Assembly (NCBI GenBank): GCA_009746045.1
Contig: RPFO01000102.1
Location: 2,429,808-2,493,807, forward strand
DNA: 64,000 nt
Reading direction: 5' to 3'
DNA from: Mesostigma viride
Taxonomy: Eukaryota > Streptophyta > Mesostigmatophyceae > Mesostigmatales > Mesostigmataceae
Made by a program: the position numbers and the translations under genes. The notes under the pieces were generated by a model. It worked only from the letters and a program-made list of their open reading frames with translations. It made no database searches and was not told the DNA's origin. The stretch's first letter is position 1, and every line of letters begins with the position of its first letter. Shown in pieces: positions 6,701 to 9,700 of this stretch.

Positions 6701-9700
6701 GCAGGAGCAGGGAGATGGCGACGACCTGGAAGCGACACGGGAGAAAGTCCAGGGGGACGGGGAGGGGAGATGAAGGATTAAGGAGCAAGGCAGGAGCGAG
6801 CGAAGAAAGAAGCCAGAAGGGGGGGCAATGCGCTCGCCGTATGCAATATCAAGACATGCAGCATGATCTGATTCGATATAAGTGTAGCCATTCCGCCCGC
6901 CAAGTTTGGGATGTATGACAAGCTGGTGGAAAAAGTACCTGGGGGGCATGGCGTAAGGGGCACGCCGGCACAAGGGCACAATAGGCTAGACAGCGCATTA
7001 GGGAGCAGAGTGACATGAGCTCATGCCATATCAAAACATCCTAATGATACGAGCCCTTAAGTTCTTGCCCATAGGCCCATGTGTGGCATTGTAAAGGGGA
7101 TATTACGAGCAAGGGAGATGGGTGGGGAGGAGGGCCAAAGCACAACGAAGGGGGGAGGGTGGCCAGGCATTTGAGCATGTTCCACCCGTGACAAAACGAT
7201 CCCGACCTCAACGGAACGCCAGACCTAGTAGACCGCTAGACCTAGTAGACCGCCAGACCTAGTAGACCGCCAGACCTAGTAGACCACCAGACCTAGTAGA
7301 CAGCCAGATCTAGTAGACCGCCAGACCTAGTAGACCGCCAGACCGAGTAGACCGCCAGACCGAGTAGACCGCCATACCTAGAAGACCGCAAAAGATTGTG
7401 AAAGACTGTGTGAAAGAAGGCAACCCTGAACAGAACTACGCCGTGGTCTTAGCAAGAAAAGGCTGCTGGCATGCCACCGGACGCTGCAAAGAGACGGCGG
7501 CTGCTTGTAATGTGTATGAAGGTGTGGCCTGCCCTTTCGTAATGGGCTCCCAGAAAGACATGACGTTACCTCTGTGACAAACAACTCCCATCATAAAGAA
7601 AAAGATTCATTGCTGTCAGTGCAAAATGCCCGCCTGCCATGTATACAACTGCCAGGTATGCAGCTACCCAGAGAGTCTGGGGAGTGCTGTTGTGACCGGC
7701 TAGCTATATGGTCATGGGCTCTCCACAATGCAAACCTAAAATGCCACTGGCTCCATTGGTAAAGCTGTTCGAAACACGTACCTCGACCTCCACTGAGAGA
7801 ACGATCCCGGCCTCCTCCTCCCGTTCAGGTCGCCGGCGGGGCGCCACGCGCGGGTGGGGATGACTTTGGGCATCCGTCACGTCCATGTCCTCATCCGGGG
7901 TGGCGTCGGGCAGGTTGGCCATGAGCAGGTAGAGTTGCCGGTGGATGAAGGGCGAGAGGAGCAGGAGGATGGGTGACGTCGTCAGGCGAAATCGGATTAT
8001 CTGTGAGGGACACGAGACAGGACACGAGCGCAGATATCAACATCAGGGCAGGCGCCCCCACCGTCTGTTATAAGGCTGTGAAACAAGACAACAACGAGGC
8101 TGCAAAACAAGACAAGAAACGAGAAAACAATCACGCCAACCGCATTGGCCGATCGTCAGGGATGTGTCCAGAAGAGGGCAGGAGGATCGGTAAGTAATTC
8201 CTCCAGTCAATAGTTCCTCCACCTTAAAAGTCCAAACCTCGCAAAGGCGGCCCGAAATCGCAGGGTCCGGATTCCATCGCTATCTATTCATTCACGCGCC
8301 TCCGTTGGGAGCGTCACCGGGTACCAACTTTTGCTAACTATGCTGAGCTCCAAAACCCAGGCCGGCGTGACCCTACGCACGATGCCAGGGTGCAACACCC
8401 GGCACATGCCTGAGCTATGCAGCGTGGTTGGTTCATACTACGAATAGCATTACAAATACATGGGCGACCTGTATCATGGGAGGCCCACCCTCGTCGCCTT
8501 GGTACTGTGCCAGCTTGACCGCCTCGTGGCATAAGGCACAACTCTTTAGCGCCCCCTAACCTCCCTAATATAGTAGAATATAGCACCTCCCAAATATTGT
8601 AGTATGAATTGTAGTAGAACGACATTGTAGTACAAGTGTGTAGTATAATATAGGAGTATCATGGTGCCATCCAATTGCACACCCACCCACCTTGGTTGTG
8701 CTATACAATTGCACACCCACCCACCTTGGTTGTGCTATACAATCGCACAACCACCCACCTTGGTTGTGCTATACAATTGCACACCCACCCACCTTGGTGG
8801 TGCTATCCAATTGCACAACCACCCACCTTGGTTGTGCTATACAATGACACAACCACCCACCTTGGTGCTATACAATGGCACAACCACCCACCTTGGTTGT
8901 GCTATACAATTGCACAACCACCCACCTTATTTGTGCTATACAATCGCACGACCACCCACCTTGGTTGTGCTATTCAATCGGACGACCACCCACCTTGGTT
9001 GTGCTATCCAATTGCACGACCACCCACCTTGGTTGTGCTATCCCATTGCACAACCACCCACCTTGGTAATGCCGCGCTCGACCGGCTCGTTACAAAACGC
9101 GCAGCTCAGCTGGGTCATCACATGCTCAACGACAGGGACAGCATTGTGGAAGTGGCCGCGCCGCTGGACGTCCTCTCGCCCCATGAACGCCTGGATCTCG
9201 AGCCTCGTCACGATCCGCTCGAATAGCGCCACGCGACCCCCCCCGTGGGACATGACCCAGCGCGCGTCCTCCTCACCCTTGGAACGGGGGGATGGGCACG
9301 CAAGGAAGTCCTCGTTCATGCGCGCACGTTTGAGGGCGTCCGAGGAGGGAGGGGCAGCTCCGGACGTGTTTGAGTTACTGGTGCCCGAGGGGTTGTTACC
9401 GCTAGTGTGCGGGTGGGCCGGCCGAACATTGCTGTCGAATTGATGAAAGCTGTGGGTGGGGCAGATAGCAGCATTCCCGAAGCAATAAAATCGTGGGCAC
9501 TGCAGCATTAATGTTTATTTCATAGCATTAATAAACTTGACGTTGCTTTGTCACTCACTATTTTGTGGATCAAAATCAAAAGTGATGGAGGCAGTGTTAT
9601 GATTGTGATAGTGAAGGCAGGCACCTTCCTCCATGAGCACAGGCAAGACCCTTCCCCCGTCAAGGTGATAGAAAAATATTATATACAAATCTCTGGGTAA

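Follow-up and report, generated by a model that had tools for sequence, protein, structure and literature searches.

Probable local tandem duplication of exon ends and decoy splice donors in introns of the green alga Mesostigma viride

Introduction

Minisatellites that span exon-intron boundaries have been described in amphioxus, where these "mirage" repeats were reported in Adh3 and in the globin genes BflGb6 and BflGb9 (PMC3087553; original work by Canestro 2002, as cited there). Mirages lie at both 5' and 3' boundaries, have units of 10–160 bp, many of them with AG/GT signals, and undergo haplotype and somatic length changes, with reverse transcription PCR suggesting regular splicing (PMC3087553). 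In human, a donor-site minisatellite is found in IFI6 (6-16) (Turri 1995, as cited in PMC4526556), and boundary minisatellites with a mean unit of 30 bp and 4 repeats accompany novel introns in segmental duplications (PMC2812944). Introns can also be gained by tandem genomic duplication of AGGT (PMC3443670), tandem duplication being an accepted route of intron gain (see also PMC2891723). Here we analyze a 64,000-nucleotide stretch of the genome of the streptophyte green alga Mesostigma viride (contig RPFO01000102.1, positions 2,429,808 to 2,493,807; hereafter the window), in which an intron of a VPS13-like gene begins with a minisatellite that repeats the end of the preceding exon together with its 5' splice site (donor).

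The published M. viride genome measures 441.8 Mb; its introns average 1142 bp, repeats take up 30.1% of intron space, and a word search of the available text of that report for "splic" returned 0 occurrences (PMC6947507). The original prediction for the window was that 5' splice sites recurrently give rise to minisatellites, and it knew of no named phenomenon to match. A name does exist, such boundary-spanning tandem repeats being the mirages of amphioxus (PMC3087553). No report of such repeats in Mesostigma, or of such a prevalence, was found among the matches listed for open-licence PubMed Central (PMC) titles and abstract openings.

Results and Discussion

An exon-end minisatellite in a VPS13-like gene

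The array starts from the VPS13-like exon 9 donor (Table 1). Tandem Repeats Finder (TRF) assigns it a period of 34 nt, instead of the 38 bp first proposed, with 12.0 copies and 90% matches. The motif ACCAAG/GTGGGTGG (exon end, then donor) occurs in it 12 times, from the real donor at 9061 to position 8690, with AATAAG in one unit and a spacing of 34 nt throughout save for a single 31-nt interval. Because the real donor is one of the 12 occurrences, 11 decoy donors are present. The claim that each unit carries the exon end and donor, and that the array starts at the junction, was therefore correct; a donor in every unit, with the first unit at the exon end, is also the arrangement of an IFI6-type donor minisatellite. 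The exon match is only ~6 nt per unit. Exons 1–9 of the gene form a single stop-free joined frame of 1248 amino acids, and the first exon matches the Pfam domain VPS13_N at E=1.3e-9, yet under the curated cut-off (36.8 vs 80 bits).

Exon-edge copies across the genome sample

Prevalence was measured in the assembly of this single species (439.9 Mb, 2243 contigs), a kinesin reading frame of which shows 100% identity to the M. viride protein record jgi/Mesvir1/11257. For a homology set, exons were located through kinesin (PF00225, 129 matches) and chaperonin (PF00118, 58 matches) profiles, blind to repeats, and introns were taken from 20 kinesin regions, kinesin-search loci, four extra kinesin stretches and five chaperonin stretches. 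Junctions were set from the reading frame, the continuity of the profile and a site score; because the donor score helped to pick them, weak donors are under-represented. With locus L018 removed for a gap mismatch and L062 left outside (best junction score -0.82), the final set comprised 41 introns at 25 loci. An ab initio finder was trained on these same genes, in which it found 27 of the 29 homology donors and reproduced 24 of the 29 introns exactly. It gave 177 intron models in 42 regions after removal of exon pairs scoring <18, exons <40 nt, exons of low complexity and any intron outside 110–3500 nt. Of these, 28 lie in the window, which had been picked for its repeats, and 15 in loci L001–L008, which were retrieved by donor motif (motif-chosen loci); a recount without both left 134 introns in 34 regions, and a strictest subset, with the homology-set junctions also removed, 95. 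The homology set consists of kinesins and chaperonins, and the remaining regions were mostly picked around kinesins. The window and motif-chosen loci are included in the reversed and inverted controls, copy anatomy, 36-mer profile, age split, intron thirds, unit coverage, junction-limited copies, donor-like-site counts and the first long-intron and G-skew comparisons. The 36-mer of each junction was searched for by alignment in the intron that it borders; its score was then ranked among those that junctions of other genes reach within that intron, and z>3 counted as a copy.

By this test the homology set had donor copies in 16 of 41 introns and acceptor copies in 8, while mid-exon pieces from the upstream and downstream exons scored in 2 and 0. 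The corresponding ab initio counts were 49 donor, 21 acceptor and 4 and 1 mid-exon among all 177 introns, 39, 14, 3 and 1 in the 134-intron recount, and 27, 7, 2 and 1 in the strictest 95; the window itself contributed 7, 3, 1 and 0 from its 28. Donor copies thus lie at 28–39% of sampled donors, confirming that exon-edge copies exist and extend beyond the window. Tandem repeats are found at both types of boundary, as in mirages (39 and 14 of 134, 16 and 8 of 41), which rules out a donor-only phenomenon. Introns with a donor copy only outnumbered those with an acceptor copy only by 34 to 9 in the 134-intron set (p=1.7e-4) and by 24 to 4 in the 95-intron set (p=1.8e-4).

Chance and base composition are ruled out by the low rates of foreign junctions, of mid-exon pieces and of control junctions, the last ranging from 0.7 to 2.1% (reversed donor 1/144, reverse-complement donor 3/144). 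A dispersed mobile element is likewise ruled out, the copies being local and direct. Nor is the sequence one that is common to unrelated genes, as for introner-like elements: an intron's own junctions exceed those of other genes, and the reverse-complement rate is 2.1%.

Position, age and anatomy of the copies

Positional profiles were drawn from introns no shorter than 400 nt, of which there were 144 (107 in the recount without the window and motif-chosen loci). With low-complexity sequence removed, 36-mers starting 96, 72, 48, 36, 24 and 12 nt upstream of the donor had a local copy in 1, 7, 15, 24, 30 and 27% of introns, respectively. The rate was 25–30% from +0 to +150, 18–30% in the intron body and 21.0% (102/486) at random interior positions; on the 3' side it was 4–13% for starts within 100 nt of the intron's 3' end, 10–12.5% at the acceptor (below interior, p=0.004) and 2% at exon position +36. 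The duplication therefore crosses the donor and fades within ~70 nt of exon. A recount with a stricter score and without the window and motif-chosen loci gave 11% (22/198) at the exon end, 15% in the first 24 nt of intron, 19% in the interior, 4% in the last 20–90 nt, 3% (10/344) at the acceptor and 0/197 in the exon beyond +45. Recent copies (at least 26 of 36) were found at 5% of donors, 13–16% of positions from +100 to +260 and <1% of acceptors, against a null rate of 0.02% for any copy. Because the interior rate is near the donor rate and young copies are rarer at the junction than 100–260 nt inside, we conclude that donors are not seeds of the process; duplication passes over them. The original prediction of a recurrent process tied to exon boundaries thus holds insofar as direct donor copies occur at sampled loci across the genome, but its tie to the 5' splice site is not supported, the interior being copied nearly as often. 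It had named as fatal the finding that exon ends are copied no more often than other intron positions, and for donors the data come close to this (30% vs 21%, or 11–15% vs 19% in the stricter recount).

With the exon portion of the query set at no more than 60 nt, 61 donor copies were delineated in 32 introns, at offsets from 55 nt up (best-copy median 104) and with 8–50 nt of exon each, along with 15 acceptor copies in 13 introns (median offset 102). Most measured copies are arranged head to tail at a spacing of ~55–130 nt. Among nearest copies within 260 nt (3 more of each kind, at larger offsets, were excluded), similarity covered at least 80% of the unit, gaps allowed, for 18 of 28 copies at donors and 7 of 10 at acceptors, as head-to-tail duplication would give and as in the direct tandem repeats of mirages. 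Decoy donors score nearly as high as real ones (median 9.3 vs 9.7), in agreement with the prediction that many decoys are created; decoy acceptors are far weaker (4.9 vs 11.6). Divergence with distance from the real exon, another predicted trait, is not a rule: the farthest copy was less alike than the nearest in 9 of the 16 introns with at least two donor copies.

Origin of the copies

The reading that we favor, with a probability of roughly 0.7, is frequent local tandem duplication in introns that is largely blind to exon borders and is filtered by splicing and coding constraints. Introns would duplicate stretches of roughly 55–130 nt locally, directly and mostly head to tail, perhaps through replication slippage or unequal exchange. 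A stretch lying over a donor would take the last nucleotides of the exon (8–50 observed) and a decoy donor into the intron; with the original upstream donor still used, the protein would be unchanged and the copy would drift. A stretch over an acceptor would place a decoy ahead of the real site, so that a search running 5' to 3' would meet its AG first and choose it, and such copies would mostly be lost; the order of splicing may thus underlie the asymmetry between donors and acceptors. Stretches within exons would change the protein and be lost as well, and repeated rounds in the intron would produce arrays and longer introns. Use of the first donor has a single line of support, the open joined VPS13-like frame.

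Several results weigh against this reading. Donors are copied more often than the interior (30.4% vs 21.0%, odds ratio 1.65, Fisher p=0.022). The donor/acceptor asymmetry is of borderline significance in the homology set alone (11 donor-only vs 3 acceptor-only, p=0.057), is less at the strict threshold of z>8 (17 vs 11 of 177) and is missing from the motif-chosen loci (3 vs 4 of 15, with 0 and 0 mid-exon). If decoy acceptors were purged, their AG might be expected to decay faster, and it does not (intact in 10 of 15 copies, 10.2–10.3 expected). Local copies also occur at 12% of positions in window 42000–50000, which was not modelled as introns, so the process is not clearly confined to introns. 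Finally, unit coverage was <0.5 for 5 of 21 donor copies but for 2 of 125 interior copies, and for 5 of 16 vs 1 of 24 at anchor scores <28. These five junction-limited copies (L029:1782, L048:4506, L040:5413, L049:6375 and L050:6849, gene-strand offsets) are similar to their source only over ~24–50 nt around the junction, at 80–96% identity, which is odd because simple tandem duplication ought to copy the spacer too. They could be selected decoys, products of short patch duplications, or old copies that their frozen exon side has kept recognizable.

A further reading, which we regard as doubtful, is that introns across the genome grow with a 5'-half polarity, donor copies being tolerated or kept and acceptor copies removed, so that the intron body would record the order of splice-site choice during transcription. 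Among the 47 introns no shorter than 900 nt, local copies were present at 29% of positions 100–400 nt from the donor vs 12% of those 110–410 nt from the acceptor (confidence interval (CI) of the difference 0.055–0.245). By thirds, the first exceeded the last in 46 introns and the last the first in 22, with 66 ties (sign p=0.005; marginal when bootstrapped over regions, P=0.025). A 5' excess of duplication in long introns is therefore suggestive. Without the window and motif-chosen loci, 28 long introns gave 33% vs 18%, and because the CI (-0.003 to 0.283) reaches below 0 the 5' part of this reading is weakened, while its donor/acceptor part held. The 22 homology-anchored introns, with thirds at 0.116, 0.233 and 0.240, have no 5' bias and tend in the opposite direction. 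In the sampled introns the 5' end is rich in G (skew +0.19) and the 3' end rich in C (-0.18). A G-rich strand was considered as the driver and rejected, the position-matched G-skew excess of duplicated pieces not being significant (CI -0.047 to 0.225).

Duplication seeded at the 5' splice site itself, for example by RNA-DNA hybrids or a polymerase paused at the intron start, appears unlikely. It would account for the excess of donor over interior copies, for the donor-side excess in long introns and for a surplus of strong donor-like sites, of which introns contain 161 vs 99 in block-shuffled sequence (34 of the 161 being identified copies); these sites are doubled in the first intron half (127 vs 64.5 shuffled) and not in the second (33 vs 33.5). 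However, antisense donor-like sites are in excess as well, if less so (122 vs 100), young copies peak 100–260 nt inside rather than at the junction, and acceptors are copied too. Moreover, donors fall under the interior in the stricter recount, and the long-intron recount, the homology-anchored introns and the G-skew comparison speak against it as well.

It is quite improbable that the decoys are selected, as they would be if extra U1-binding sites aided donor commitment or protected long introns from premature cleavage while the spacers decayed. The near-full strength of decoy donors and the five junction-limited copies fit this idea, as does the GT intact in 53 of 61 donor copies vs 45.5 expected (P=0.011). 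However, the copy alignments include the donor, so that an intact GT is favored by choice, and old copies stay detectable through the frozen exon sequence. That the copies are real alternative exons or donors under isoform selection is very improbable: many decoys are strong donors and the human IFI6 minisatellite does yield such isoforms (PMC4526556), but the copies carry only 8–50 nt of exon, their offsets are spread over the three frames (24, 23 and 13 of 60) and the 103-nt ones of CAS-like exon 6 hold stops.

Other loci in the window

The eight cases listed originally are clear for VPS13-like exons 3, 6, 7 and 9, for exon 6 of a second gene and for the plus-strand gene; they are weaker for VPS13-like exon 1 (alignment score 16) and exon 2 of the second gene (19). 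This second gene is called CAS-like after its earlier label, its protein having only weak Pfam matches, all above E=0.02. For both the VPS13-like and CAS-like proteins, a protein search that scored just those candidates with the most words in common gave no match at E<=0.001. Acceptor-side copies before VPS13-like exons 6 and 7, missed earlier, are also present (Table 1), with further, weaker ones for exon 6 near 13285 and 13500. When 13 window introns were scored at z>3, a count that leaves out the intron after VPS13-like exon 9, whose acceptor had no fixed position, and in which the acceptor after CAS-like exon 6 is one base off, donor copies were found in 7, acceptor copies in 2 and mid-exon copies in 0 and 0.

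Table 1. Coordinates of exon-edge copies and associated features in the window.
Feature	Position	Strand	Basis
34-nt minisatellite, ~12 units, begins at VPS13-like exon 9 donor	8664..9067	-	TRF and motif count
VPS13-like exon 9; first intron base after real donor, 9061	9062..9449	-	Joined frame and motif
VPS13-like intron 7, donor 11706; 2 copies, each holding 50 nt of exon; decoys near 11599, 11500	11500..11706	-	
Acceptor-side copy of VPS13-like exon 7 start (11940), ~97 nt upstream, 86% identity	12007..12036	-	
VPS13-like intron 6, donor 12739; 4 exon-end copies, decoys near 12638, 12546, 12478, 12399	12399..12739	-	
Acceptor-side copy of VPS13-like exon 6 start (12925), ~103 nt upstream, 82% identity	12990..13046	-	
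VPS13-like intron 3, donor 17403; decoys 17273, 15454, 15337, ~15200, with 21–42 nt of exon 3 end	15200..17403	-	
VPS13-like intron 1, donor 18942; complex array, donor-like pieces, best decoy 18505	18495..18942	-	
CAS-like intron 6, donor 51123; three 103-nt units past exon end, decoys 51020, 50917, 50814	50791..51123	-	
CAS-like intron 2, donor 55838; two short donor copies at 55345, 55189	55178..55838	-	
61-nt copy of the end of the putative second exon (62236–62296) of the plus-strand gene, donor included	62342..62402	+	

CAS-like exon 6 has a weak donor, GTCGGT, which stays in frame if the next exon begins 1 base later than in the joined coding sequence. The CAS-like exon 2 copies are two pieces of 21–23 nt at +493 and +649. 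The 61-nt copy in the plus-strand gene is genuine, and either copy may be the used exon. The public protein record of one other gene diverges from the genome at a point consistent with an AAG/GTGAG donor.

Local copies were found at 15–16% of positions in two minus-strand gene stretches of the window, 13% in the plus-strand one and 4% and 1% in two others. At 26300–42000, where open frames resemble non-LTR retroelement reverse transcriptases as judged by eye (LTR, long terminal repeat), local tandem copies were present at 0 of 812 positions. VPS13-like intron 3 is 2.9 kb long, and more than half of it is a run of differing 4-nt arrays (15510–17235) flanked on both sides by decayed copies of the exon 3 end. 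A GATG array at 23638–26204 has ~642 copies at 99%, and other tetranucleotide arrays (GAAC, GGGT, CCCG, AGGG, CCAC and TGGG) are spread across the window, several within VPS13-like introns. Among the chaperonin loci, G000:C887:345845-347056 and G000:C1641:63548-67934 are possibly two copies or alleles of one gene; by their coordinates, they differ in the length of the intron between the same two exons, ~0.9 kb against 4.1 kb.

Comparison with known systems

If the sampled rates hold genome-wide, M. viride would contain a very large natural set of exon-edge duplications of graded age. Such a set could be used to test which of two nearly identical donors, or acceptors, is taken by a spliceosome of the plant lineage, and could also show how introns lengthen and new donors arise. 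It also calls for caution in annotation, as near-full-strength decoy donors are often found 55–130 nt from the real ones.

The closest relatives of these repeats are the amphioxus mirages, which are alike in being boundary-spanning tandem repeats at both 5' and 3' edges. Mirages, as reported, are known from a few amphioxus genes, whereas in Mesostigma copies lie at 28–39% of sampled donors, with donors exceeding acceptors, and are known from DNA sequence alone. Human IFI6 resembles the 34-nt array in that minisatellite units supply donors at the exon end; in IFI6, downstream units are reported to be used and to give isoforms, and the 34-nt array has less of the exon than most other Mesostigma copies do. 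Intron gain through AGGT is likewise a local tandem duplication that doubles splice signals, but there an exonic duplicate becomes a new intron, whereas the Mesostigma copies contain intron as well as exon sequence and sit within a longer, existing intron. The human segmental duplications, as described, involve 27 intron modifications in recent paralogs, unlike the ordinary genes and wide range of copy identities seen here. Boundary-spanning repeats were thus already known in amphioxus; what is new here is their prevalence and the excess of donor over acceptor copies, and the finding brings a phenomenon of isolated amphioxus genes to a green alga.
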